64,000 bases of DNA, from assembly GCF_035934735.1 (NCBI RefSeq), contig NZ_CP142396.1:1922001-1986000 (forward strand), read 5' to 3'. Of this stretch, positions 10,527-60,608 are shown piece by piece. The translations under genes were made by a program, and so were the position numbers. Positions within the stretch are counted from its first letter, which is position 1; each line of letters opens with the position of its first letter. Under the pieces are notes generated by a model. It had not been told where the DNA came from and made no database searches. It saw only the letters and a list, made by a program, of their open reading frames with translations. This stretch comes from Sedimentibacter sp. MB31-C6 (GTDB taxonomy: Bacteria > Bacillota > Clostridia > Tissierellales > Sedimentibacteraceae).

Positions 10527-11396
10527 ATGCATTACAAAGAGTATAAATCTATTCTTTCAGCTAAAAACGGAATTAATATATACAGGGGTTGTAGTCATGG
10601 TTGTATTTATTGTGATAGCAGAAGTAGTTGTTATCAAATGAGCCATGATTTTACCGATATCGAGATAAAGAAGGATGCACCTATAATGCTTGAAAATGCA
10701 TTGAAACGCAAACGTAAAAAATGTATGATTGGTACAGGCTCAATGTGCGACCCATATATTCATATTGAAGAAGAAATTATGTATACCAGAAAATGTTTGA
10801 AAGTTATAAATAAATACAGTTTTGGGTTATCGATATTAACGAAATCAAATAGAATTTTACGTGATTTGAATTTGCTTAAAAGTATCAATGAAAAGTCAAA
10901 ATGCGTTGTGCAAATGACGCTTACTACTTATGACGAAGATTTATGTCGTATTTTAGAGCCTAATGTTTCCACTACAAAAGAGCGTTTTGAAACATTGAAG
11001 ATACTCCATGAAAATGGAATACCAACAGTTGTTTGGTTATCTCCTTTTTTACCGTTTATTAATGACACTGAAGAAAATTTTAGAAATCTCCTTAATTGCT
11101 GCATTGAGGCTAAAGTTTATGGAATTATGTGTTTCGGCATTGGAGTAACATTGCGTGAAGGTAATAGAGAATATTTTTATCAAAAACTAGATGAACATTT
11201 TCCTGGTATGAAACAAAAATATATTAATTCATTTGGAAATTCTTATGAATGTCTAAGTGATAATAATGATAGACTTATGAAGATGCTTTATTTGGAATGT
11301 AAAAAGCATAATATCTTATTAGGAATAGATAAAGTCTTTAATTATTTAAAGTTATATGAATACAAAAATGCTTATGAACAGATTAGTTTATTTTGA
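10527..11396 (+). CDS. SPL-family radical SAM protein
   Basis: 289 residues. The radical SAM motif is CSHGCIYC (C22, C26, C29), preceded by NIYRG, the hallmark of the spore-photoproduct-lyase-like group sometimes annotated as Rv2578c/SPL family. The remainder fits a partial TIM barrel (MIGTGSMCDPYIHIEEE, SILTKSNRILRD, VVWLSPFLPFINDTEENF). It is shorter than true spore photoproduct lyase (about 340 residues), so DNA repair should not be assumed. It follows the GyrI-like gene by 25 bp. The substrate is unknown. Confidence 0.85.
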   Translation: MHYKEYKSILSAKNGINIYRGCSHGCIYCDSRSSCYQMSHDFTDIEIKKDAPIMLENALKRKRKKCMIGTGSMCDPYIHIEEEIMYTRKCLKVINKYSFGLSILTKSNRILRDLNLLKSINEKSKCVVQMTLTTYDEDLCRILEPNVSTTKERFETLKILHENGIPTVVWLSPFLPFINDTEENFRNLLNCCIEAKVYGIMCFGIGVTLREGNREYFYQKLDEHFPGMKQKYINSFGNSYECLSDNNDRLMKMLYLECKKHNILLGIDKVFNYLKLYEYKNAYEQISLF

Positions 11397-11410
11397 GAAA
11401 CGTTAATAAT

Positions 11411-11443
11411 GACCGTGTAAAGTTTTTATAATTATACACGGTC
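11411..11443 (+). terminator. probable terminator hairpin
   Basis: A 9-bp perfect stem, GACCGTGTA (11411-11419) and TACACGGTC (11435-11443), 15 bp after the radical SAM stop. There is no strong T-run afterwards, so it may be a weak terminator or an mRNA-stabilising hairpin between convergent genes. Confidence 0.55.
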
Positions 11444-11510
11444 ACTTATTGGTAATTGAAATTTATAATGTTATTATAATAAAATTATTTACATTTTAAG
11501 ATATAAGATT

Positions 11511-11744
11511 TCAATCAGTATTATTTGACACTTCTATTGGAATTACATAACATATATTATCACAACATGTTACGCTTATTCCCCCATAAATATATTCTAG
11601 TATTACAAGATTATCTCTAATGTCTAAAATTCTACCTGCAGTACCAAAATACGTAGGGCATATAAATTTTATAAATACATATCTTCCTTCATAATCACGC
11701 AAAAGTCTATCACAAATGTTACAATAGTTATCATGTTTACTCAT
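11511..11744 (-). CDS. small Cys-rich protein, paralogue of its neighbour
   Basis: 77 residues, not assigned to a named family. It begins with CNICDRLLRDYEGRYVFIKF and contains a CXXC pair (C8, C11), a central Cys (IC), and a CC pair near residue 60. It aligns by eye with the upstream neighbour over LLRDYEGRYV / FLKDYIGQYV, an IC or VC pair position, a short beta stretch, GG, then a CC-D/N-DI segment. The gene start overlaps the neighbour's stop by 8 bp, and its GAGGAGGAG ribosome binding site lies inside the neighbour's coding end, so the two are translated together. A small beta-barrel that binds metal or is cross-linked through cysteines (as in spore coats) is possible but unproven. Confidence 0.6.
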   Translation of the reverse strand: MSKHDNYCNICDRLLRDYEGRYVFIKFICPTYFGTAGRILDIRDNLVILEYIYGGISVTCCDNICYVIPIEVSNNTD

Positions 11745-12084
11745 GTGACATCTCCTCCTCTTGTAAAATACCTTGTACAGAATTAAACAAACTTTGTCTT
11801 TGTTTAACCATAGTTTCTATATTAATAACTTTATCTGTATCAGTAGCACCAGCTACTCCGCAGTCAAATATATATATCTCAAAAATATCATCACAACAAC
11901 CAGTAAAAATTACATTTCCGCCTCTTATAGAATCAAACAATCTTATAGTGTTATCATTAAATGATCTTTTGTTGATATATCCATCTATATAGATATGATC
12001 ATTAGTATCACAGTTGCAGACTACACCAATTCTTACATATTGTCCTATATAATCTTTTAAAAAACAACAAAATGGACATTCCAT
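11737..12084 (-). CDS. small Cys-rich protein, first gene of a two-gene unit
   Basis: 115 residues beginning MECPFCCFLKDYIGQYVRIGVVC with a CXXCC cluster, further Cys at VCNC and TGCCDDI, and an acidic C-terminal tail of about 35 residues that the downstream paralogue lacks. The shared core (about residues 8-70) is the same length and pattern as in that paralogue. GGGTGA precedes the ATG. No signal peptide or membrane segment is visible. I do not recognise the family. Confidence 0.6.
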   Translation of the reverse strand: MECPFCCFLKDYIGQYVRIGVVCNCDTNDHIYIDGYINKRSFNDNTIRLFDSIRGGNVIFTGCCDDIFEIYIFDCGVAGATDTDKVINIETMVKQRQSLFNSVQGILQEEEMSHE

Positions 12085-12291
12085 AAGTCGTTATCACCCT
12101 TTCAATAAATATCAAGAATAAACAGTATACTCTAGAAAGCACATAGAAAAATTGAATTACATACTATCTATCTTCAATTCATAATATGTCCAAATTTATT
12201 TTTTGTTAATCTTTTCTAAAATTTAGTTATTGTTCTGAAATCTCCTCATACCTGTTTAGACATACAATTATTGAATAACAATAAATTAATA

Positions 12292-12319
12292 TTGACATTC
12301 GAGATGTACTTGGTATAAT
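12292..12319 (+). promoter_or_regulatory. sigma-A type promoter
   Basis: Perfect -35 TTGACA (12292-12297) and -10 TATAAT (12314-12319), 16 bp apart, 27 bp before the DUF2975 gene. It drives the DUF2975/HTH pair and possibly the phosphoesterase behind it. Confidence 0.85.
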
Positions 12320-12346
12320 TAAGATATATAGTCAGGGAGGGTTTAA

Positions 12347-12799
12347 ATGTATAGAAATAGTTTTGTTCATTATGTAACAAAAATTTGTGTAGATATTCTT
12401 TTCATTGTGGGAATAATTTGTTGCGCAATTGTATTATTTTCAAAATCATGGTTAATAAAGTATTTTAACTTAACTAGTGAAATGATTGTACCTATGATTT
12501 TAGTTTTGATAACTTCAGGTTTAGCTTGTGTATACATTTTATGGCAGTTAAAAATTGTTTTTAAAACACTAATAGGCGGTAACCCATTTGTTTTAGAAAA
12601 TGTTACATGTTTGCGGAAAATGGCAGTAGCAAGTTCTATAATAGCAATAATTTATTTAATAAAGTGTTTATTTTGGTTTACGATATCAACTGTTGTAATT
12701 GTAATAATTTTTGTTATAGCTTGTTTATTTTGTTTAACTCTCAAAGATTTGTTTAAACAAGCAGTATATTACAAAGATGAAAATGATTTAACAGTGTAG
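12347..12799 (+). CDS. DUF2975 membrane protein
   Basis: 150 residues with four hydrophobic segments (about 12-34, 43-65, 88-108 and 112-130) and the family motif GGNPFVLENVTCLRKMAVASS after the second helix. DUF2975 proteins are almost always paired with a small Cro/CI-type regulator similar to YozG, as here, where the HTH gene follows after 9 bp. The pair is thought to act as a membrane-linked regulatory unit, but its signal is unknown. The start follows a GGGAGGG ribosome binding site. Confidence 0.9.
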   Translation: MYRNSFVHYVTKICVDILFIVGIICCAIVLFSKSWLIKYFNLTSEMIVPMILVLITSGLACVYILWQLKIVFKTLIGGNPFVLENVTCLRKMAVASSIIAIIYLIKCLFWFTISTVVIVIIFVIACLFCLTLKDLFKQAVYYKDENDLTV

Positions 12800-12808
12800 G
12801 AGGTAATT

Positions 12809-13015
12809 ATGGCTATTGTAGTTCAGTTAGATGTAATGATGGCAAAGAGAAAAATAGGTCTTATGGAACTTGCTGAGAAAGTAAATATTACACCTGCAAA
12901 TTTATCTATATTAAAAAATAATAAAGCTAAAGCTATAAGGTTTTCAACATTAGAAGAAATATGTAAAGTATTAGAATGTCAACCTGGAGATATATTAGAA
13001 TATGTAAATAAATAA
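12809..13015 (+). CDS. YozG-like Cro/CI-type HTH regulator
   Basis: 68 residues consisting of one XRE helix-turn-helix (LMELAEKVNITPANLSILKNN, then ALRFSTLEEICKVLECQPGDIL-like helices). The ending QPGDILEY is typical of the YozG family that accompanies DUF2975. It has AGGAGG 6 nt before its ATG and is coupled to the upstream membrane protein. It probably regulates its own operon. Confidence 0.9.
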   Translation: MAIVVQLDVMMAKRKIGLMELAEKVNITPANLSILKNNKAKAIRFSTLEEICKVLECQPGDILEYVNK

Positions 13016-13065
13016 AATAGCGTAATTTAGAATTTAAATAGTTTCGATTGAGAGGTATAAGTTAT

Positions 13066-13821
13066 ATGTGTAACAATAATATTGAATTAGAACATATAGA
13101 TATTAAAATAGTCGATTTGCCAAAGGAATTATTTGGATTTACTATTGCTCATATATCAGATGTACATATACCTAATAATATTTTAAATATTAATACTATA
13201 TCTACTTTAATTGAAAATGAGAAACCAGATGTAATTGCAATGACTGGTGATTTAATATACAAGTATAAGGAAGTTGAAGAAGATAAATTAAGTAATTTTT
13301 GCTTCAATATATCTAAAATAGCTAAAACATATGCAGTAACAGGAAATCATGAATCTTGGAGTGATATAGAAAAGTGTTGTGAAATTATGAATTCAAATGG
13401 TGTTACAATAATAGATAATAAATTTGATTTTTATAAGAGAAATGATACATCCGTTCTATTTATGGGACTTAAAGAAGGAAGTAAATATTCTGATTTGAAT
13501 TTTGATTTTGTAATTGAAAAAAAAGTACCTAAAATATTATTATCTCACCGCCCGGAATTACTCTGGGATTATAGTTCAGATTTAAATTGTATTAAACCAG
13601 ATTTAGTTTTTTGTGGTCACGCTCATGGAGGACAATTTAGAGTACCTTTTATAAATAAAGGGATTTATTCTCCTGATCAAGGAATTTTTCCGAAGTATTC
13701 ATCAGGATTATATTTTTCTAGTAATAAAACACAAATGGTAGTAAGTAGGGGGTTAGGGAATAGTACTTTTCCAATAAGAATAAACAATATGCCTCATATA
13801 CCTATTATTAGGTTGAAATAA
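13066..13821 (+). CDS. metallophosphoesterase
   Basis: 251 residues. Calcineurin-like motifs are in order: DVHIPNN (metal I, D-X-H), TGDLIY (GD), GNHESW (GNHE), a His in LLSHRPEL and GHAHGGQFR (GHXH). The protein resembles YkuE/YaeI-type phosphodiesterases but lacks an N-terminal membrane anchor, so it is probably cytosolic. An in-frame TTG at 13048 would add six residues, but its codon overlaps the GAGAGG ribosome binding site, so ATG 13066 is preferred. The substrate is unknown. It is the last gene before a large minus-strand terminator. Confidence 0.88.
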   Translation: MCNNNIELEHIDIKIVDLPKELFGFTIAHISDVHIPNNILNINTISTLIENEKPDVIAMTGDLIYKYKEVEEDKLSNFCFNISKIAKTYAVTGNHESWSDIEKCCEIMNSNGVTIIDNKFDFYKRNDTSVLFMGLKEGSKYSDLNFDFVIEKKVPKILLSHRPELLWDYSSDLNCIKPDLVFCGHAHGGQFRVPFINKGIYSPDQGIFPKYSSGLYFSSNKTQMVVSRGLGNSTFPIRINNMPHIPIIRLK

Positions 13822-13852
13822 AAATATTTTATTGATAAAATTTTTAATAAAA

Positions 13853-13915
13853 AGAAGAGGGGTATATCGATATCTCGTTTAGAAGTTTCATTATTACAAC
13901 GAGAAGCCCCTTCTT
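13853..13915 (-). terminator. long two-tier terminator hairpin
   Basis: The outer stem AAGAAGAGGGG (about 13852-13862) pairs with CCCCTTCTT (13907-13915), with a small bulge. An inner stem, TCTCGTT (13873-13879) and AACGAGA (13898-13904), extends it. On the minus strand it is followed by a long T-run, so it mainly terminates the cupin transcript, 36 bp after its stop. Confidence 0.75.
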
Positions 13916-13950
13916 AAATTAATGGTAGAATTTTATGTTTTCCTATATAA

Positions 13951-14598
13951 CTAATAACGGTGATTTCTTTCAGTAGCTTCCGCTTCCTCTTTGGTTTTAT
14001 GAACTGTACTGTGTGGATGCTCAGGTGGTGCATAAATGGAGTATAATTTAATTGGTGTATTGCCTGTGTTAATCAGATTATGCCATTTCCCTGCAGGTAT
14101 AATGAATGCAAAGTCATCATATACATTTTCTTCGAAATCTAACCTATCTTCTCTATCACCCATTCTTACAAGTCCTTGACCTTCTTCTATGCGTATGAAT
14201 TGATCAACATCAGGATGCATTTCCAAACCTATATCATCACCAACATCGATGCTCATTAAGGTGAGTTGTAGATAATCTCCTGTCCATAAAGCAATTCGAT
14301 AAGTATTGTTTTGTTTAGTAGCTTCCTCGATATTAATAACAAAGGATTCTGGTCCATAATCCATAAATTCAACTAATCCATTATTGTTCATTGGGTATTG
14401 CCAATTATTATATCTCCAATCATAACTTGGTTCATTTGTATAATACTGATTATTAAATTGATTTGAATATTTATGATTATACATTGGACCATTCATGTAA
14501 TATTCATATGCTTTATAGGCATCATACATCATATTTTGGTTAAACCACGGCGGGTTATTGTAATATTGACATGGATATTTATTATAAGGGTTATACAT
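13951..14598 (-). CDS. cupin protein with Tyr/Asn-rich N-terminus (coat-like)
   Basis: 215 residues. Residues 1-75 are strongly enriched in Tyr, Asn, Pro and Met (MYNPYNKYPCQYYNN), a composition common in spore coat proteins. Residues about 95-200 form a cupin: HPDVDQFIRIEEGQG (motif 1) and FIIPAGKWHNLINTGNTP (motif 2), with the usual metal-binding His positions. The family includes mannose-6-phosphate isomerase-like cupins; no catalysis is implied. The ATG at 14598 is preferred over 14616 because the codons between them form its AAAGGAGAG ribosome binding site. An insertion sequence sits 16 bp upstream, separating the gene from a sigma-K-like promoter now at 16362-16389. Confidence 0.82.
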   Translation of the reverse strand: MYNPYNKYPCQYYNNPPWFNQNMMYDAYKAYEYYMNGPMYNHKYSNQFNNQYYTNEPSYDWRYNNWQYPMNNNGLVEFMDYGPESFVINIEEATKQNNTYRIALWTGDYLQLTLMSIDVGDDIGLEMHPDVDQFIRIEEGQGLVRMGDREDRLDFEENVYDDFAFIIPAGKWHNLINTGNTPIKLYSIYAPPEHPHSTVHKTKEEAEATERNHRY

Positions 14599-14614
14599 AT
14601 ATTTCTCTCCTTTC

Positions 14615-14626
14615 ATAAACTTATAA
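14615..14626. repeat. left copy of a 12-bp direct repeat flanking the insertion sequence
   Basis: ATAAACTTATAA here is repeated exactly at 16347-16358, directly outside the two imperfect inverted ends of the element. This is consistent with a target-site duplication, although a chance match in AT-rich DNA is not excluded. Confidence 0.6.
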
Positions 14627-14627
14627 T

Positions 14628-16346
14628 AGGCATTTGTTAAATGCCCAAACCCATTGATTTAGATGGGTTTAGTGTTAATCTTATATATAAATTTCTCTCC
14701 TGTTATGGTATAATGTAAGTACCAACAAACAAAAACTACAACAGGAGGAAACTTATGTCTATTAAATACTCTCAGCTAACACTTGCTGAAAATTTCAGTG
14801 AATGTCAAGATTTACTAACATCTGACACATCTACATTCTTCTCACTATTAGAAGAACATATTAATTTATGTGATTTCATACCAGTGGAATTTTACTGTGC
14901 TTTCCACTTATCAATAGGCAGAAAAAGGGATTATCCTTTAAAAGGATTTTTATCTGCTTTAATATTGCAGAAGATATTAACCATTCCTACTGATGCTTTA
15001 CTTATCAATTTACTTTCTTTATGTCGCGAATTGCGTGATTTCTGTGGTTTTACAAAAGTGCCTGACGCCCCTATGTTTACACGTTTTAAACAGACCTTTA
15101 TACCTCAATTAGAGCTTATGTTCTCTAAAATGGTTGACTATACTGAACCTATCTGTCAAGCTATCGATTCTACCCTTGCTTCAATTATTACACTTGATAC
15201 TTCCGGAATTGAATTATATGTTAAAGAAAACAATCCTAAGTATTTGAATACTCTCATTAGACAGCTTAAAACTTACTATAAGAATAATCTTAACGTTGAT
15301 CCATACAAAATGGCTTATGGTCTAATGCCTTCTCAAGCTACATCTTCTCCTGATGCTAAACAGATGTACATTAATGGTCATTTCTGTTATGCCGACAAAT
15401 TTGCTATTATCACCAATGGTTTAGGACTTGTGCGTAATATTGCTTTCTTGGATGATGACTTCAAACAAAAGCATCAAGATATTGAAATTGACAAGAAATC
15501 CGATTCCCCTGACGAGGATAAATCAATCGGTGATTCTTCTGCATTAAAACCGGTTTTACAAGACTTCTTTGAACTTCATCCTGATTTTCACCCATCGACT
15601 TTTCTTGGAGATTCCGCCTTTGATACTATTGAAACCTATACTTTTTTAAAAGATGAATTTAATTTTAAAAAAGCAATTATCCCTTACAATACAAGGAATG
15701 AAAGTACTCTTAAAAAAGTTGGTTACAATGAATATGGTTATCCATTATGTCCAAATGACTCCTCTTTGGTTATGAAATATTGTGGGCCTTGCCGTGAAAA
15801 GGGTCGTGCCGACCGTATAAAATGGATATGCCCTAAAGTTCATATGGAAAGAGGTCAATTTGTTTGTAATTGTGACAATCCGTGCAGCACTGCCAAAAAA
15901 GGTAGAACTACTTACACTTATGAAAATATGAGTTTTCGTATGTTTCCAGGCTTACAACGTGATTCTGATGAATGGAATGAGTTGTATAAAATACGTACTG
16001 TTGTAGAAAGAGCCATTAACCATTTTAAAATGAACATGTGCATAGCCGGAAGAAAATCTCGTGACCATCTTACTACTAAAGCTGATGTGCTTATTGCAGG
16101 AATTGCTAGTCAATTCACAGCAATTATCGCACACAGATTAAGTTGTCCACAGTATCTTAGAAGTCTTAAACCACTAATTGCATAATTTCTTAATGCTTAA
16201 AGTTATTGATATTTCAATGTTCGTAGGTGTATTAAGGTTGCCCTTAAATCCAATTATTTCACTTGCTTTAACTTGTTTTTCTTTTTTTTTGCTATTTTTT
16301 ATTAGATTCTATCAACAGTTATCAAAAAATCATTTTACAATTTCCT
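14628..16346 (+). mobile_element. complete insertion sequence, about 1.72 kb, DDE type
   Basis: The boundaries are inferred from imperfect terminal inverted repeats, AGGCATTTGTTAAATGC (14628-14644) and the complement of 16330-16346 (AGGAAATTGTAAAATGA), 13 of 17 matching, abutting a 12-bp direct repeat (one extra T on the left). Inside are a hairpin AAACCCAT/ATGGGTTT (14647-14670) that could block incoming transcription, a TATAAT-like element (GGTATAAT near 14711), and one intact transposase gene. About 160 bp of non-coding DNA follow the transposase inside the right end. The intact gene and clean ends suggest recent insertion. Confidence 0.65.
14755..16185 (+). CDS. DDE transposase (IS5/IS1182-like)
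   Basis: 476 residues. An N-terminal DUF772/InsH-like domain (GRKRDYPLKGFLSALILQK, about residues 55-73) precedes a DDE nuclease with D148 in ITLDTSGIEL, D in FLGDSAFDT (about 283) and E in RTVVERAINHFK (about 418). A Cys-rich insertion between the second D and the E (CGPCREKGRADRIKWIC...CNCDNPC, about 342-382) is like that of IS1182-type enzymes. AGGAGG lies 6 nt before the ATG. The frame is uninterrupted, so the element may be active. The exact IS family is uncertain without a search. Confidence 0.85.
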   Translation: MSIKYSQLTLAENFSECQDLLTSDTSTFFSLLEEHINLCDFIPVEFYCAFHLSIGRKRDYPLKGFLSALILQKILTIPTDALLINLLSLCRELRDFCGFTKVPDAPMFTRFKQTFIPQLELMFSKMVDYTEPICQAIDSTLASIITLDTSGIELYVKENNPKYLNTLIRQLKTYYKNNLNVDPYKMAYGLMPSQATSSPDAKQMYINGHFCYADKFAIITNGLGLVRNIAFLDDDFKQKHQDIEIDKKSDSPDEDKSIGDSSALKPVLQDFFELHPDFHPSTFLGDSAFDTIETYTFLKDEFNFKKAIIPYNTRNESTLKKVGYNEYGYPLCPNDSSLVMKYCGPCREKGRADRIKWICPKVHMERGQFVCNCDNPCSTAKKGRTTYTYENMSFRMFPGLQRDSDEWNELYKIRTVVERAINHFKMNMCIAGRKSRDHLTTKADVLIAGIASQFTAIIAHRLSCPQYLRSLKPLIA

Positions 16347-16358
16347 ATAAACTTATAA
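16347..16358. repeat. right copy of the 12-bp direct repeat
   Basis: Identical to 14615-14626 (ATAAACTTATAA); probable target duplication outside the right end of the insertion sequence. Confidence 0.6.
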
Positions 16359-16361
16359 CAT

Positions 16362-16389
16362 TATCTTATGCTTTTATTAAAGGAGTGTG
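16362..16389 (-). promoter_or_regulatory. sigma-K-like promoter, displaced from the cupin gene
   Basis: Read on the minus strand, CACA (16389-16386) precedes CATAAGATA (16370-16362) by the spacing expected for sigma-K (mACm, about 16 bp, CATAnnnTA). If the insertion sequence and one direct repeat are removed, this -10 would lie about 13 bp before the cupin's AAAGGAG site. The assignment is by consensus only. Confidence 0.5.
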
Positions 16390-16639
16390 CTTTGTCATAA
16401 AGCAAAAGGTAATATGAAATTTGGTAATTAACAAGAATGAGTTTTAATATTATTGTCAATTTTATTGAAATAAATGAAAAATAAGGTATAATATAATATG
16501 AAAACGAAAAAGTTGTGAATTATTAACTAGAGCTTTAGATTAGTTACTAGTTTATAATGGAATAAATTTTAAGAAACTAAAAAAACACCTAATTTATCTA
16601 AGATATAGCAAAGGATAAATACGGGGAAAGGAGGTACAA
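16390..16639 (+). other. intergenic region with ClC promoter
   Basis: Within this AT-rich stretch a plus-strand promoter, TTGAAA (16465-16470) and TATAAT (16487-16492), 16 bp apart, precedes the ClC gene, leaving a leader of about 140 nt. I see no fluoride-riboswitch consensus or other known riboswitch in it. A 79-codon frame overlapping the insertion sequence end (16178-16417) is not credible as a gene. Confidence 0.65.
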
Positions 16640-18211
16640 ATGGAAAATGATAATGATATAGTCAGTAATTTTTTTCAAAAAAACATTAAGCTAAAATTAT
16701 TGATTCAGGGAACAATTGTAGGAGCCCTTTCTGGTCTATTAATTGTATTTTATAGAATAACATTAGATAAAGCTGAATTGTTAAGACAAAATATTCTTAA
16801 TTTTAACATTGAAAAAGTGTTACTTGTATTATTATGGTTTATTATTTTAATATCATTATCATATATAGTGGGGCGATTAGTAAAATCAGATCCATTAATT
16901 AGTGGTAGTGGAATTCCACAGGTTGAGGGAATTCTTTTGAAAAAAATAAAAATAAATTGGTTTCCTTTAATTGTTAGAAAATTTATAGGTGGAGTTATTT
17001 CTATAGGAGCAGGTTTATCTTTAGGAAGAGAAGGACCGTCTATTCAACTTGGTGCTGCTGTTGGACAAGGAGTTAGCAGAACTACAAAAAACAAAGCTGG
17101 AGAAAAGTATTTAATTACTTGTGGTGCAGCTGCCGGTCTAGCTGCAGCATTTAATGCACCTTTAGCAGGAATAATGTTTGTTTTAGAGGAAGTACATAAA
17201 CATTTTTCCCCATTAATATTACTTCCCACTATGTCTGCAGCATTAACAGCAGATTTTATATCAAAGCAATTTTTCGGGTTAAAACCAGTCTTTAATTTTA
17301 CTGGAATAAGTCTTTTAGGACTCGAAAATTATTTATTTATTATAGGTCTTGGTATTATTGTTGGTATTTTTGGTGCAATATATAATTTTTCATTAATAAA
17401 AACTCAAAATATTTATAAGAAGCAAAAGTGGCTTCCTATGAAATATAAAATAATGATACCTTTTTTAATTTCAGGAGTTTTGGTTTTTATTATGCCAGAA
17501 GTACTTGGTGGTGGACATCATTTAATAGAATCACTTATTCAAGGAAAATATACAGTTAAAGTTTTGTTTGTAATATTAGTAGTTAAATTTGTGTTTTCAA
17601 TGATAAGCTATGGCTCAGGTGCACCAGGAGGGATATTTTTTCCTCTTTTAGTTTTAGGAGCACTTACAGGATCATTATATGGTATTGGACTTGTAAACTT
17701 GTTTAATCTTAATCCTGAGTATATTAATAACTTTATGATTTTAGCAATGGCAGGTTTGTTTTCAGCTATAGTTAGGGCGCCAATTACTGGCAGCATATTA
17801 ATTACAGAAATGACTGGTTCTTTTTCTCATTTTCTTTCTATTAGTATTATATCACTTGTTGCATATATTACTGCAAATTTGCTTAAATCAGCTCCTATTT
17901 ATGAATCTCTACTTGAAAATTTATTGAAGGATAATAGTAATAAAGAAAATGCTAATGATAGCAAAGAGAAGGTTTTATTAGAATTTTCAGTTTATTTAGA
18001 TTCAGCGTTTGATGGTAAAGTAATAAAGGATATGAAACTACCTTCTAATTGTTTAATTGTTTCAATTAAAAGAGGAGAAGAAGAAATAATTCCCAAAGGC
18101 AACACTATAGTTAATTCAGGTGATTATTTGTATATTTTAGTTAATGAAAATGAAGCAGCATCAATTAAAGAAAGATTATCTATAATGAGTTGTCAATCTG
18201 TTATAGTTTAA
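16640..18211 (+). CDS. ClC-family chloride channel or antiporter with TrkA-C domain
   Basis: 523 residues. The ion-pathway motifs are GSGIP (89-93), GREGP (129-133, with the gating glutamate E131) and the GxFxP-type GGIFFPLL (about 330). About eleven hydrophobic segments follow ClC topology. Residues about 445-523 form a cytosolic TrkA-C (RCK-C) domain. The gating glutamate fits either a voltage-dependent channel or a 2Cl-/H+ exchanger, roles known in acid resistance and ion balance. It is not the fluoride-specific branch, which has GREGT and GxxxP variants. GGAGGT is 5 nt before the ATG. It stands alone, converging with a MATE gene. Confidence 0.9.
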   Translation: MENDNDIVSNFFQKNIKLKLLIQGTIVGALSGLLIVFYRITLDKAELLRQNILNFNIEKVLLVLLWFIILISLSYIVGRLVKSDPLISGSGIPQVEGILLKKIKINWFPLIVRKFIGGVISIGAGLSLGREGPSIQLGAAVGQGVSRTTKNKAGEKYLITCGAAAGLAAAFNAPLAGIMFVLEEVHKHFSPLILLPTMSAALTADFISKQFFGLKPVFNFTGISLLGLENYLFIIGLGIIVGIFGAIYNFSLIKTQNIYKKQKWLPMKYKIMIPFLISGVLVFIMPEVLGGGHHLIESLIQGKYTVKVLFVILVVKFVFSMISYGSGAPGGIFFPLLVLGALTGSLYGIGLVNLFNLNPEYINNFMILAMAGLFSAIVRAPITGSILITEMTGSFSHFLSISIISLVAYITANLLKSAPIYESLLENLLKDNSNKENANDSKEKVLLEFSVYLDSAFDGKVIKDMKLPSNCLIVSIKRGEEEIIPKGNTIVNSGDYLYILVNENEAASIKERLSIMSCQSVIV

Positions 18212-54790: not shown

Positions 54791-55846
54791 TTATATCATA
54801 ACAATAGGTTTAATTAAATCTTTTGGTTTATTTTTCATAAGTAATAATGCTTCTTCCATTTTGTCAAAACCATTAAATTTATGAGTAAGAAGTTTACTGG
54901 TATCAAGTCTTCCTGTTTGCATTAATGTGGCAAGTTTTTCCATACGAAGTCGACCACCTGGCATTAAACCACCTGCTATTATTTTATGACCCATACCGCA
55001 ACCCCATTCAGCTCTTGGTATCTTTATATAATCGCCAGAACCTAAGTAGTTAACATTTCCTATTCTTCCACCTGGTTTTAAAATTGTAATTGCTTGAATA
55101 AACGTATCAACATTTCCACCTGCAACAACTACTTTATCAACACCTTTTCCATGAGTTTTTTCCATGATTTGCTCAACAATGTCACCTTCACGATAGTTAA
55201 TAATATCTGTTGCACCATATTCTTTTGCAATTTCTACACATTTTGGACGAGAACCTACAGCATACAAATTAGATGCACCACGAAGAGCAGCCCCTGCAAC
55301 AGCCATTAAGCCTACAGGTCCAATACCTATTACGCATACGTTATCACCGAATTGTATATCAGCCAATTCAACTCCATGAAAACCTGTTGGAACCATATCA
55401 CTTAACATAACTGCATCTGCTGGATTAATATTATCAGGTAAAATTGCAAGATTACCATCTGCATCATTTACATGAAAATATTCACCGAAAACTCCATCTT
55501 TGAAATTGGAAAATTTCCAACCTGCAAGCATTCCACCTGAATGCATTGAATACCCAGATTGAGATTCAAGTGCGTTCCAATCTGGTGTGATTGCTGGAAC
55601 TATAACCTTATCTCCAACTTTAAAGTCCTTAACAAGGGAACCAACTTCAACAACTTCACCAACACCTTCGTGTCCAAGTATCATGTCACTACGTTCACCG
55701 ATAGCGCCTTCCCATACAGTATGTACATCAGAAGTACATGGAGAAACAGCAATAGGTTTAACGATTGCATCAAGGGGACCGCATTGAGGATAATCCTTAT
55801 CAATCCAACCTGTTTTACCAATTCCTAACATTGCAAAGCCTTTCAT
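54791..55846 (-). CDS. adh: NADP-dependent secondary alcohol dehydrogenase (TbADH-like)
   Basis: 351 residues, closely resembling the Thermoanaerobacter brockii/Clostridium beijerinckii enzyme throughout (MKGFAMLGI, AVSPCTSDVHTVWEGA, GMLAGWKFSNFKDGVFGEYF, KPKDLIKPIVMI). The catalytic zinc ligands match exactly: C37, H59 and D150. The coenzyme loop has G198-S199-R200, the NADP(H)-specific set. It reduces acetone and other ketones or aldehydes, or oxidises secondary alcohols. It has its own promoter and terminator. AGGAGG precedes the ATG. Confidence 0.95.
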   Translation of the reverse strand: MKGFAMLGIGKTGWIDKDYPQCGPLDAIVKPIAVSPCTSDVHTVWEGAIGERSDMILGHEGVGEVVEVGSLVKDFKVGDKVIVPAITPDWNALESQSGYSMHSGGMLAGWKFSNFKDGVFGEYFHVNDADGNLAILPDNINPADAVMLSDMVPTGFHGVELADIQFGDNVCVIGIGPVGLMAVAGAALRGASNLYAVGSRPKCVEIAKEYGATDIINYREGDIVEQIMEKTHGKGVDKVVVAGGNVDTFIQAITILKPGGRIGNVNYLGSGDYIKIPRAEWGCGMGHKIIAGGLMPGGRLRMEKLATLMQTGRLDTSKLLTHKFNGFDKMEEALLLMKNKPKDLIKPIVMI

Positions 55847-57057: not shown

Positions 57058-57144
57058 TTACAAAAAAAGGGTTATATTGAATTTAATCTATAAATATGTT
57101 CATACTAAACTATAGATATTTTTAAGAAATAACAGGAGGAATAT

Positions 57145-59058
57145 ATGTCTGGAAATATTTTAGAGAAGCCTGAAGGTCGTGTAAGTTATCATGATTCAGT
57201 TGAAGAAATGTTAATTAGAATTAGAGATGATGGACTTTCAAGCGTTTTTTCAAGATGGAGTGAACAGGAAAAGATACGTTGCAACTTTTGTCTTCAAGGA
57301 GTAAGCTGTCAGTTGTGTACACAAGGTCCCTGTAGATTAAGTGATAAAGCTGGAGCGGAAAAAGGAGTTTGTGGTATTGGAGCTGATGCAATGGCAATGC
57401 GTAATTTTCTAATGAGAAATATTATGGGTGCTGCTACTTATGCTCATCATGCCTTTGAAGCTTTTAGAACATTAAAAGCTACTGGGGAAGGTAATACACC
57501 TTTTAGAATTACAGATACTGAGAAATTGAAATGGATGTGTGAAAAAACCGGTATCAATACTAATCAAGATACAAATAAAATGGCAATACAATTAGCTGAA
57601 CTTTTAGATAATGAAATGAAAATTAATCCTGATCAAAGTAGTATTATGGTTGAGGTTTTTGCTCCAAAAAAAAGAAAACCCCTTTGGAAAGATTTACACA
57701 TTTACCCTTCTGGAGTTCAGCATGAAGTTGAGAATAGTATTGCTAGTTGTTTAACTAATGTAGATGGGGATTATGTATCATTAGCTAAAAAGGCATTGCG
57801 TTTAGGATTATCAACAATTTATACCGCGCAAATTGGATTAGAGATGACACAGGATATTTTATTTGGCACACCTATGCCCCATGAAGTTGATGTTGATTTG
57901 GGAATAATGGATCCTGATTATGTGAACATTGCATTTAATGGTCATCAGCCATGGATAGGTGTTGCTACATTGCAAAAAGCAAAAAAACAAGAGTATCAAG
58001 AAATGGCAAAAAAGGCTGGGGCAAAAGGAATTCATATTGTAGGCTCAATAGAAACTGGTCAGGAAATGCTGCAAAGGTTTGAAGTTGATGATGTTTTTGT
58101 TGGTCTTATGGGAAATTGGTTAGCTATTGAACCATTTCTAGCTACAGGAACAGTAGACGCTCTGGTCATGGAGGAAAATTGTTCTCCACCGGCTATAGAC
58201 CAATATGCAGAAACATATCAAGTTGCCCTTGTTAGTGTAAGTACAATAATAGGCGTGCCAGGCACTGAACATGAAATGCCATATTATCCTGGTAAAGCTG
58301 ATGAAATGGCAGAAAGTTGTATTAACATAGCAATAGAGAACTTTAAAAAAAGACATGGTAAAATAGAATCTATGGTTCCTAAACATAAGAGAAAAGCTAT
58401 AGCAGGCTTTTCTACTGAAGCAGTTTTAAAAGCAATCGGAAACGATTTAAATACATTAGTTGATGTTATTGTGAAAGGACAAATAAAAGGAATTGTTGCT
58501 TTGGCAAATTGTTCAACTCTAAGAAATGGACCTCAGGACTGGAATACAGTAAATATTACAAAAGAATTAATAAAAAGAGATATCCTTGTAGTAGCAGGTG
58601 GATGTGGTAATCATGGTTTAGAAGTTGCTGGACTATGTAATCTCGATGCGATTGAAATGGCAGGAGAAGGACTTAAAGGAGTTTGTAAAGCTTTAGGAAT
58701 ACCTCCGGTTTTAAGTTTTGGCACATGTACTGATACAGGTAGAATATCAATGCTTGTAACAGCTTTAGCGGATCATTTAAATGTGGATATTTCAGATTTA
58801 CCTATTGCAGTTACTGCCCCCGAATGGATGGAGCAAAAAGCAACGATTGATGGTATATTTGCAGTAGCCTATGGAGCATATACTCATTTGTCTCCTACAC
58901 CATTTATAACGGGAGCGCCTAATTTAGTAAAACTTCTTACAGAAGATGTTGAAGGGTTAACTGGAGGAAAGGTAGCACTTGGAGATAATCCAGTTGAAGC
59001 TGCAATAGATATTGAAAGTCATATAATTAAGAAAAGACAAAAAATGGGATTAAATTAA
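57145..59058 (+). CDS. cooS: CooS-type carbon monoxide dehydrogenase homologue with altered active-site cluster ligand
   Basis: 637 residues, colinear with Ni-CO dehydrogenase catalytic subunits. The N-terminal Cys for the D and B clusters are present (C46, C49, C55, C58, C63, C76). Active-site C-cluster ligand positions are H267 (FNGHQPW), C346 (EENCSPP), C456 (LANCSTL), C487 (GGCGNHG) and C528 (FGTCTDTG). The sixth, normally Cys in a GICCTGNE-like loop, is glutamate: GSIETGQE with E303. A lysine equivalent to the catalytic base is kept (WMEQKAT). The His/Glu/Cys pattern is that of hybrid cluster proteins and recalls C. hydrogenoformans CODH-V. No cooC, cooF or acetyl-CoA synthase gene is near. 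AGGAGG precedes the ATG. Confidence 0.9.
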   Translation: MSGNILEKPEGRVSYHDSVEEMLIRIRDDGLSSVFSRWSEQEKIRCNFCLQGVSCQLCTQGPCRLSDKAGAEKGVCGIGADAMAMRNFLMRNIMGAATYAHHAFEAFRTLKATGEGNTPFRITDTEKLKWMCEKTGINTNQDTNKMAIQLAELLDNEMKINPDQSSIMVEVFAPKKRKPLWKDLHIYPSGVQHEVENSIASCLTNVDGDYVSLAKKALRLGLSTIYTAQIGLEMTQDILFGTPMPHEVDVDLGIMDPDYVNIAFNGHQPWIGVATLQKAKKQEYQEMAKKAGAKGIHIVGSIETGQEMLQRFEVDDVFVGLMGNWLAIEPFLATGTVDALVMEENCSPPAIDQYAETYQVALVSVSTIIGVPGTEHEMPYYPGKADEMAESCINIAIENFKKRHGKIESMVPKHKRKAIAGFSTEAVLKAIGNDLNTLVDVIVKGQIKGIVALANCSTLRNGPQDWNTVNITKELIKRDILVVAGGCGNHGLEVAGLCNLDAIEMAGEGLKGVCKALGIPPVLSFGTCTDTGRISMLVTALADHLNVDISDLPIAVTAPEWMEQKATIDGIFAVAYGAYTHLSPTPFITGAPNLVKLLTEDVEGLTGGKVALGDNPVEAAIDIESHIIKKRQKMGLN

Positions 59059-59093: not shown

Positions 59094-59117
59094 AAAAAGC
59101 GGCCTAGGCCGCTTTTT
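59094..59117. terminator. perfect palindromic terminator
   Basis: AAAAAGCGGCC (59094-59104) and GGCCGCTTTTT (59107-59117) with a 2-nt centre serve cooS; the minus-strand gene stops inside the right arm. A second small hairpin TAGCGT/ACGCTA lies at 59065-59079. Confidence 0.9.
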
Positions 59118-59637
59118 ATTGTGGTTGATACATTCCTTTACTTTCCATATATTTGAATACTGATTCTCCGTGTTGCTGTTCTTCTTTTTGTATATGATTC
59201 AATATGTTACGTACCTGAGGATCTTTGAATTCAAATATGGCAGTGTCATATGCACCAGACACATATTTTTCTGTCATTAAAATATCAGTACAAAGATCTT
59301 TGTCTGAATTATTATAATTAGTTGAGCTACTAGTTGAGCTACTTTGTGGCTTGAAACTACTCGAACCTTGCATCTGTTGCATTTGAGGCTGTTGTTGCAT
59401 TTGAGATTGTTGTTGCTGACTTCCACCTCCTTGCTGATTCATAGAAGGTACTTGACCATTTAGCAATTGATTAATTGTGTTTAGATGTTCTTGTTCTTTT
59501 TGTCCATTTTGTTTAAATATACTCTTAAGTTCTTGACAATTTGTTAAACTTGCATAATTAGAATATTTTTGAATACATATTTCTTCGTGAGATTTTTGAT
59601 CTTCTAATAGCATTCTTTCTTTATTTGTAAAATTCAT
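59116..59637 (-). CDS. spore coat protein CotF family (ferritin-like) with Gln/Ser-rich linker
   Basis: 173 residues from ATG 59637 (GGAGGTG 6 nt upstream); an in-frame ATG at 59667 lies before that site and is rejected. The N-terminal half (about 1-65) and C-terminal quarter (about 120-170) form the two parts of the CotF/DUF2383-like helical bundle (SHEEICIQKYSNYASLT and DILMTEKYVSGAYDTAIFEF). Between them is a low-complexity stretch of Gln, Met and Ser (about 68-115). CotF-type proteins are coat components or ferritin-like proteins. It supports a sporulating host. Confidence 0.88.
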   Translation of the reverse strand: MNFTNKERMLLEDQKSHEEICIQKYSNYASLTNCQELKSIFKQNGQKEQEHLNTINQLLNGQVPSMNQQGGGSQQQQSQMQQQPQMQQMQGSSSFKPQSSSTSSSTNYNNSDKDLCTDILMTEKYVSGAYDTAIFEFKDPQVRNILNHIQKEEQQHGESVFKYMESKGMYQPQ

Positions 59638-59801
59638 ATTCAACACCTCCGTTACTATTGTTTTCAAAAAAAAAATATATATTCTTAAAATTATTAATTT
59701 TTAAATTGCTTTCATATATTTGTTTAAGTTGATTTATATAAAAAATAGTATTATCATAGTTATAATATAATAGTTTAACATTTAATAAAAGGGGTGACAA
59801 T

Positions 59802-60608
59802 ATGCGTAATATTAATATAATGTATTTCAGTCCAACAGGAACAACTAAGAAAGTTGTTAATGGTTTAGCTAAGATTTTATCAAATGATAAAGAAACGAAT
59901 ATAAAATATATTAATTTTACTATGCCAGATATAAGGGAAAAATCAATAACCTTTGGTAAAAAGGAAATTTTAATAATAGGAATACCTGTTTATGCTGGTA
60001 GGGTTCCAAATATATTGTTGAAATATTTGGATACAATAAAGGGTGATGATACCATAGCAATTCCTATTGTAGTGTATGGAAACAGAAACTATGATGACGC
60101 TTTAATTGAATTAAAAAACATTTTAGTTTCAGGGGGATTTACTGTTATAGCTGCGGCAGCCTTTATAGGAGAACATTCTTTTTCTAAAAATTTAGCTAAA
60201 GGAAGGCCAGATAATAAGGATATGAATAAGGTATACCATTTTGGTCATAAACTTGCTGAGATTTTACATGATGTACCTTCTAAACATGTTAAGGTTCCAG
60301 GGCAGAATCCTATTAGACCGTATTATCAGCCTAAAGATAAAAATGGTCATTCTTTTGATTTTAAGAAAATTACACCGAAAACCAACGAGAATTGTATTGA
60401 TTGTAAGTTATGCGCCGAAATTTGTCCAGTAGGGTCAATTAATTTTGATAATGTATCAAAATTAATTGGCATATGTATAAAATGTTGTGCCTGTGTAAAA
60501 AATTGTCCTACACAAGCAAAGTTCTTCGATGATGAAAATTATATTAAACATAAAATTGAGTTAGAAATAAAATATTCAAATAGAAGAGAGCCTGAATTGT
60601 TCTTTTAG
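59802..60608 (+). CDS. EFR1-family flavodoxin/ferredoxin protein
   Basis: 268 residues. The N-terminal flavodoxin-like domain begins INIMYFSPTGTTKKVVNGLA (phosphate loop SPTGTT) and continues GIPVYAGRVPNILLKYL. The C-terminal part carries two [4Fe-4S] motifs, CIDCKLCAEICP and CIKCCACVKNCP (about residues 200-240). Such EFR1 proteins shuttle electrons between flavin and ferredoxin partners, but their exact role is unknown. There is no partner enzyme directly adjacent; cooS is 0.7 kb upstream across a minus-strand gene. GGGGTG precedes the ATG. Confidence 0.9.
   Translation: MRNINIMYFSPTGTTKKVVNGLAKILSNDKETNIKYINFTMPDIREKSITFGKKEILIIGIPVYAGRVPNILLKYLDTIKGDDTIAIPIVVYGNRNYDDALIELKNILVSGGFTVIAAAAFIGEHSFSKNLAKGRPDNKDMNKVYHFGHKLAEILHDVPSKHVKVPGQNPIRPYYQPKDKNGHSFDFKKITPKTNENCIDCKLCAEICPVGSINFDNVSKLIGICIKCCACVKNCPTQAKFFDDENYIKHKIELEIKYSNRREPELFF

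Follow-up and report, generated by a model that had tools for sequence, protein, structure and literature searches.

A CooS-V-type member of the CO dehydrogenase family in Sedimentibacter sp. MB31-C6, with a putative forespore-type promoter conserved among clostridial relatives

The gene at 57145–59058 (+) in a 64,000-nucleotide stretch of the Sedimentibacter sp. MB31-C6 genome (contig NZ_CP142396.1, positions 1,922,001 to 1,986,000; hereafter the window) encodes, as judged by sequence comparison, a CODH-family protein of the CooS-V type, which corresponds to structural group D-1 of Inoue 2019 (PMC6344411). A promoter motif of the forespore type is conserved upstream of D-1 genes, and this is what is new here; no earlier report of it was found in the literature passages searched. 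The original prediction for this gene did not consider the promoter, which holds the new information. Taken as a whole, the reading of the gene as one for a CooS-V-type, Ni-free hybrid-cluster enzyme under a forespore promoter is fairly probable. The coding features are:

57145..59058 (+): CooS-V-type (structural group D-1) CODH-family protein of 637 aa, assigned by ORF, PDB, family-model and residue comparison
57280..57291 (+): codons C46 to C49; C46 and C49 are the predicted type III D-cluster cysteines, matching C38/C41 of CooS-V, where the cluster is [2Fe-2S] (PMC9311411)
57943..57945 (+): codon of H267, which aligns with His259 of CooS-V
58051..58053 (+): codon of E303, aligned in place of C-cluster Cys295 (Glu295 of CooS-V)
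58831..58833 (+): codon of E563, the predicted second Glu ligand, by alignment with CooS-V Glu556 and HCP Glu494 (PMC9311411)

The 637-aa ORF, which has an ATG start, was read directly from the sequence. Its best match in the PDB is CooS-V of C. hydrogenoformans (7b7q; E-value 1.2e-253), and the next chain, a CODH, follows at 3.4e-133. The protein shares 370 of 625 aligned residues with CooS-V (59.2% identity; CooS-V residue numbers follow PMC9311411), and the cluster residues match. It scores above the cut-off of the CO dehydrogenase model TIGR01702 (872.8 vs 478 bits) and far below that of the HCP model TIGR01703 (49.6 vs 360.8 bits). Its nearest loci, Sedimentibacter species among them, share 89–90% identity (among the best 80 of 208 relatives). 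The 3.02 Mb genome, in which the window lies within one contig, contains two matches to the prismane family, namely the CooS of the window and an HCP located ~7.4 kb downstream of it, 2.5 kb past the window end. No second CooS was found in a fuller CooS search of this genome, whereas C. hydrogenoformans carries five cooS genes (PMC9311411).

In the alignment, the loop GSIETGQE places E303 at the canonical Cys295, as originally predicted, and the same Glu is found in the CooS-V structure. The five Cys and one His that characterise cluster C of Ni,Fe-CODHs are therefore incomplete, while the other five ligands (H267, C346, C456, C487 and C528) are retained together with the Lys of the WMEQKAT motif (K565), all of which the prediction had located correctly. 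It had overlooked C49 of the D-cluster and, in the same motif as the Lys, E563, which lies two residues before the catalytic Lys (E563-Q-K565) at the position of HCP Glu494. C49, equivalent to the Cys41 added in type III D-clusters, and Y99, a Tyr at the acid-base His, agree with the definition of D-1 in Table 2 of PMC6344411, where the group is described by Glu for the first C-cluster Cys, a type III D-cluster, Tyr, Lys and an HCP-like Glu. All 14 checked residues are identical in every one of the best 80 of 208 relatives, which excludes chance or a sequencing slip at E303. E303 was aligned in 115 rows (101 unique, including the window's own copy), and among the rows that reach each site E563 is present in 113/113, C49 in 112/112 and Y99 in 112/112. 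The statement that Glu295 is unique to Ch CODH-V, made from that paper's own alignment (PMC10502027), is contradicted by these rows. The Cys-to-Glu trait was thus correctly recognised but is already in print as a group trait (D-1 of Inoue 2019; the CooS-V subclade of Jeoung 2022). As the group has been published and CooS-V solved, the gene is a further member of a published group; the comparison with CODH-V holds, but what had been cited as an outside analogy falls within the same group (D-1 of Inoue 2019) as the window gene.

The likeness to CooS-V covers E295/E303, E556/E563, C41/C49, the B-cluster, the other ligands and the Tyr in place of the acid-base His. By analogy with this 59%-identical protein, the cluster is very probably of the Ni-free [4Fe-3S-nO] type, and the nickel-free oxo-cluster enzyme that had been proposed is well supported by the identity and the complete ligand match (PMC9311411). 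According to the same source, CooS-V contains no Ni, holds a redox-morphing [4Fe-3S-nO] cluster and turns over neither CO nor CO2; its hybrid cluster can receive electrons by way of the bridging [2Fe-2S] and the [4Fe-4S] clusters and has a cavity that is open solely in the reduced state, and the potentials of CooS-V lie ~300 mV below those of E. coli HCP (PMC9311411). The window protein would correspondingly be a homodimer with one bridging [2Fe-2S] cluster and two [4Fe-4S] clusters on a CODH scaffold, in which the place of the Ni C-cluster would be taken by a morphing [4Fe-3S-nO] cluster with H267, E303, C346, C456, C487, C528 and E563 as its ligands. By homology it would not oxidise CO; electrons would enter through the D- and B-clusters, and a small oxidised substrate would be reduced at the reduced hybrid cluster. 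The 637-aa protein is likely a low-potential hybrid-cluster reductase, predicted to be made in the forespore. The suggestion of a hydroxylamine-type reductase is weak as physiology, since NH2OH turnover by CooS-V is very slow (kcat 0.13 s-1, kcat/KM 20 M-1 s-1, vs 450 for R. rubrum CODH; PMC9311411).

With the Ni,Fe-CODHs of clades E/F, such as CODH-II, the protein shares the CODH fold (by homology), the B-cluster cysteines, five of six C-cluster ligands and Lys565, but it carries Glu in place of Cys295, Glu563 where they have Ser/Asn, Tyr99 at the acid-base His and a type III D-cluster. Judging by its homology to CooS-V, it would share a hybrid-type active site with HCPs; Glu563 is the Glu of the HCP motif WYEQKA (Glu494), and the His and four Cys are aligned in five HCP rows. 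It differs from HCPs in its CODH scaffold with an interfacial D-cluster, and column 303 is a gap in all five HCP rows, which leaves the first Glu unaligned. The claim that HCPs have a Glu at the equivalent place is disputed, as Inoue 2019 aligns the active-site residues as identical (PMC6344411), whereas PMC10502027 states that Glu295 does not align with the Glu ligand of HCP; E563 is the residue whose likeness to HCP is firm.

The upstream features are:

57079..57083 (+): putative -35-like element GAATT of a sigma-G-like promoter, the highest-scoring sigma-G match within 150 bp of upstream sequence, separated by 17 nt from the -10-like element
57101..57107 (+): putative -10-like element CATACTA of the same promoter, matching the consensus, 37 nt before the ATG
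57134..57139 (+): ribosome-binding site AGGAGG, read directly from the sequence

The consensus for forespore sigma-G is GHATR-N18-CATWMTA, and that for sigma-F is GYWTA-N15-GGHRARAH. Upstream of the window gene, the sigma-G match has a p of 0.013 against 150 dinucleotide shuffles, a modest value for one of five sigma consensus strings tried, and the other four strings give p >= 0.91. No sigma-70-like site was found on the + strand between 56900 and 57145. Among the relatives, CATACTA occurs in 30 of 98 unique D-1 upstreams (one of which, L205, is no true upstream) vs 11/797 other ORFs of the same loci. D-1 rows were dropped where the upstream was shorter than 100 nt or near-identical to another, or where the alignment fell short of the N-terminus. 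The D-1 genes were divided at 80% identity, a split made after two promoter shapes had been seen in the upstreams, into 56 close and 41 distant relatives. The de novo motif of the close relatives is GACATAcTAac, preceded by an AT-rich -35-like block (LLR 510.9 vs 110–118 in three shuffled sets), and that of the distant relatives is cATA, followed ~15 nt on by G..aAAA (LLR 301.9 vs 87–98 in three shuffled sets). When entire protein clusters were left out of the training set, 42/56 close and 30/41 distant upstreams still scored at p<.05 relative to dinucleotide shuffles, as did, by cluster medians, 25/35 and 10/15 protein clusters. In sequence, the two motif shapes are those of the sigma-G (close) and sigma-F (distant) consensus.

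For the consensus test, the ribosome-binding site was removed and dinucleotide shuffles of each upstream served as the null. At p<.05, sigma-G sites were found in 30/56 close D-1 upstreams (sigma-F in 0) and sigma-F sites in 10/41 distant ones (sigma-G in 1), with the threshold missed by 26/56 close and 31/41 distant upstreams when given the fitting string. Sigma-A sites were found in 1/97 D-1 upstreams, and mother-cell control by sigma-E or sigma-K is not supported (0/97 each). Control upstreams were taken from D-2 (13/14), clade B (6/19), canonical CODH (20), HCP (20 of 179 genomes with a match), SASP (27/30 loci), gpr (28/30 loci), spoVT (30/30) and spoIVA (21/28 loci, seven being without a usable start; two more fragment loci were excluded). 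Among the forespore controls, spoVT gave sigma-G sites in 14/30 and sigma-F sites in 8/30, while SASP (sigma-G 1/27, sigma-F 3/27) and gpr (0/28) were hardly recovered with the same consensus. Neither type was found in spoIVA (0/21), HCP (0/20) or canonical CODH (0/20) upstreams, other ORFs gave 8/200 for each of the two, and clade B carried sigma-A sites in 5/6 upstreams. The AUC for sigma-G against other ORFs, with composition uncontrolled, was 0.97 for spoVT, 0.75 for gpr, 0.68 for SASP, 0.51 for spoIVA and 0.92 for close D-1.

Matrices trained on close and distant D-1 upstreams, respectively, recognised (p<.05) 12/30 and 3/30 spoVT, 4/27 and 0/27 SASP, 1/28 and 5/28 gpr, and 0/21 and 2/21 spoIVA upstreams, and were at chance on HCP upstreams (1/20 and 0/20). 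The reverse matrices, built from forespore genes, did not single out D-1, since what they had learned was largely ribosome-binding sites or other elements. No palindromic regulator site is widespread upstream (best 5/116 upstreams). A consensus promoter of the forespore type is thus conserved in the relatives, as expected of a forespore regulon, when judged with strings that recover the SASP and gpr controls poorly. It was observed for the clostridial relatives of CooS-V that the scan covered.

In a sample of 391 Clostridia genomes drawn evenly across the class, 96 CooS matches (threshold E 1e-60) were found in 73 genomes and analysed as 95 stretches, two pieces in G390 being counted as one. 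D-1 was recognised by residues in 28 genomes, 24 of which have full-length copies with all 14 residues; E303 is present in broken or partial copies in G160, G390 and G056 (the last with internal stops), and only the N-terminus is available in G137, which was assigned to D-1 by 71% identity. D-2 is found in 14 genomes, clade C in 11 and canonical CODH or clade B in 38, with clade names beyond D-1 given by matching residues to Table 2 of PMC6344411. No other CooS was found in 22 of the 28 D-1 genomes, which contradicts the view, cited in PMC9311411, that these genes are always accompanied by a second CODH. An annotation as ‘CODH’ in spore formers need not mean CO metabolism. Decayed D-1 copies were also observed, one in two pieces with internal stops (L206, in G056) and one of which only the last ~88 residues match (L208, in G003, of the window's genus), and the gene seems to have been lost in some lineages.

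In a quick tree rooted on HCP, which carries long-branch warnings and from which CooS-V is absent, the 24 D-1 rows lie on one side of a branch (SH-aLRT 94) and form one clade within CooS. D-1 and D-2 branch off basally, and clade C diverges first within the part of the tree that leads on to the canonical CODHs and clade B (93). HCP shares its Glu with D-1, D-2 and clade C, a pattern that may reflect the loss of an ancestral residue from canonical CODHs, subject to the long-branch warnings. The CooS proteins of D-2, in 14 genomes of the class, resemble D-1 in the type III D-cluster and Glu at 563, but they keep Cys303 with an adjacent Glu at 304 (GHVCEGQQ, in one case GHLCEGQQ), and forespore-type sites are found in 0/13 (sigma-G) and 1/13 (sigma-F) of their upstreams. 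In the 11 clade C proteins, the HCP-like Glu lies in PQWLEEQAL (one AQWLEEQAI) and Gln stands for the catalytic Lys; given the position of this clade on the canonical side, the second Glu could be ancestral.

A sporulation marker is present in all 28 D-1 genomes, SpoIVA in 26 and SASP, SpoVT and Gpr in the other two (G081 and G107), whereas SpoIVA is found in 252/363 other genomes of the class and in 10/20 canonical-CODH genomes without D-1. A one-sided Fisher test of D-1 against the others gives 0.004 as found and 6e-5 with the two rescued genomes, both values ignoring relatedness and the others not having been rescued likewise. In the window's family, SpoIVA occurs in 25/27 genomes and full-length D-1 in 9/27, so that D-1 is dispensable for sporulation; with SpoIVA so general, a contrast between spore formation and D-1 could not be drawn inside this family. 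Forespore expression of the D-1 gene is quite probable from the promoter motif. Transcription of the solitary gene would start at a promoter for a forespore sigma factor, sigma-G-like in this bacterium and sigma-F-like in more distant relatives, and the enzyme is proposed on that account to be made in the developing spore; forespore-type promoters on the gene and on many clostridial relatives suggest a job in the spore. There it would sit beside other sigma-G-controlled protective enzymes, which in the C. difficile sigma-G regulon include catalase, SOD, rubrerythrin and a putative nitrite/sulphite reductase (PMC3789822). The enzyme may be stored so that, within the spore or as it germinates, it can detoxify oxidants, NO or NH2OH-type nitrogen species, and this role is a tentative guess. 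On balance, it is somewhat more likely than not that the D-1 proteins of Clostridia are dedicated spore enzymes: a hybrid-cluster reductase built on the CODH scaffold would have been recruited to the forespore programme, and its sigma factor would have changed between sigma-F and sigma-G across lineages with forespore timing kept. A dedicated spore role would explain the lack of clear metabolic partners in genome-context studies, and a forespore promoter is a possible reason for little effect in vegetative CO experiments. The promoter also provides a testable role for the D-1 group in spore formers.

Methanosarcina acetivorans is not known as a spore former. A reference to D-1 in this species (PMC6344411) was counted against a spore role, and its three CODHs are placed in clade A by PMC13056359. 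The reported expression of all three CODH genes in C. autoethanogenum (PMC4895105, PMC5640608) also counts against a forespore role, as does, if cooS-2 of C. ljungdahlii is D-1, the fall of this gene under syngas at the same time as a rise in many sporulation genes (PMC4895105, PMC5640608). Two C. difficile sporulation studies, which bear on D-1 if C. difficile has one, make no mention of CooS in their main texts, and no CODH–spore link appears in the passages searched of PMC8225356, PMC11460543, PMC5640608, PMC12335938, PMC3738446, PMC7522474, PMC7438776 or PMC3789822.

The same Ni-free enzyme could serve vegetative cells, much as HCP does, in defence against nitrosative or oxidative stress and with no special sporulation link, and the slow NH2OH reduction by CooS-V (PMC9311411), the HCP ~7.4 kb downstream in a stress-like stretch (ORF names by eye) and the presence of HCP in 26/28 D-1 genomes are all in keeping with this. 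HCP is also present in 40/45 other CooS genomes (and in 113/318 genomes without CooS), and its co-occurrence was rejected as a functional link of D-1 because it is unspecific. Vegetative use is considered unlikely in view of the upstream regions, where sigma-A is not enriched for D-1 (1/97) and the D-1 matrices find HCP only at chance, and of NO reduction by CooS-V, which was not above background (PMC9311411).

The very low NH2OH turnover and the redox-gated access of CooS-V (PMC9311411) would also suit a role in redox sensing or structure, in which the morphing cluster reports the redox state with no substrate turnover in the cell, and redox sensing is mentioned for clade D by Bohm and Land 2026 (PMC13056359). 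Such a function is improbable, as the cluster ligands are invariant among those of 115 rows that extend to them, which is expected of a catalyst, and no conserved partner gene was found among 81 loci. It is most improbable that the protein is a functional Ni,Fe-CODH that kept its activity despite Glu for Cys295, even with its TIGR01702 score above the cut-off and a genetic study of M. acetivorans cited as a hint of CO oxidation by D-1 (PMC6344411). CooS-V is without Ni and without CO/CO2 activity, the C295E variant of CODH-II produced in E. coli is Ni-deficient and unable to oxidise CO (both PMC9311411), D-1 has Tyr at the position of the acid-base His (alignment; PMC6344411), and an acsA knockout of C. 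autoethanogenum that kept its two other CODH genes showed no CO oxidation (PMC4895105). The preferred reading remains a Ni-free hybrid-cluster enzyme made in the forespore.

A scan of nine neighbouring proteins (50.4–63.3 kb) found none with a CooC- or ACS-type domain, while the one encoded at 59802–60608 has ferredoxin and flavodoxin domains. Missing cooC and ACS neighbours tell little, since 64% of clade D genes are without an operon neighbour and show no clear pattern (PMC13056359). The commonest neighbour family, by eye an ABC-ATPase, is found in 19/81 loci at scattered positions, smaller sets of 10/81 and 7/81 loci have a neighbour at a similar place, and the window's own neighbours recur in at most 4/80 other loci, a sparse recurrence that argues against a general operon partner for D-1. 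D-1 has been linked only to a zinc-binding dehydrogenase of uncharacterised function and HypA/HypB (PMC6344411); the ADH at 54791–55846 fits the published dehydrogenase link, with weak ADH matches (27–28%) near only two other loci.

The gene at 59116–59667 (-), convergent with CooS, encodes a Coat F domain (PF07875) of a spore-coat family, and that at 59802–60608 encodes a flavodoxin-like and ferredoxin fusion, a conceivable electron donor; neither has a match near D-1 in the 80 other loci. Past the window end, at 11318–17435 of locus L207, the HCP stands among ORFs for a glutathione peroxidase, hemerythrin, cupin and flavodiiron protein (names by eye, HCP excepted), and this stretch, ~7.4 kb from CooS, is likely one for oxidative or nitrosative stress.
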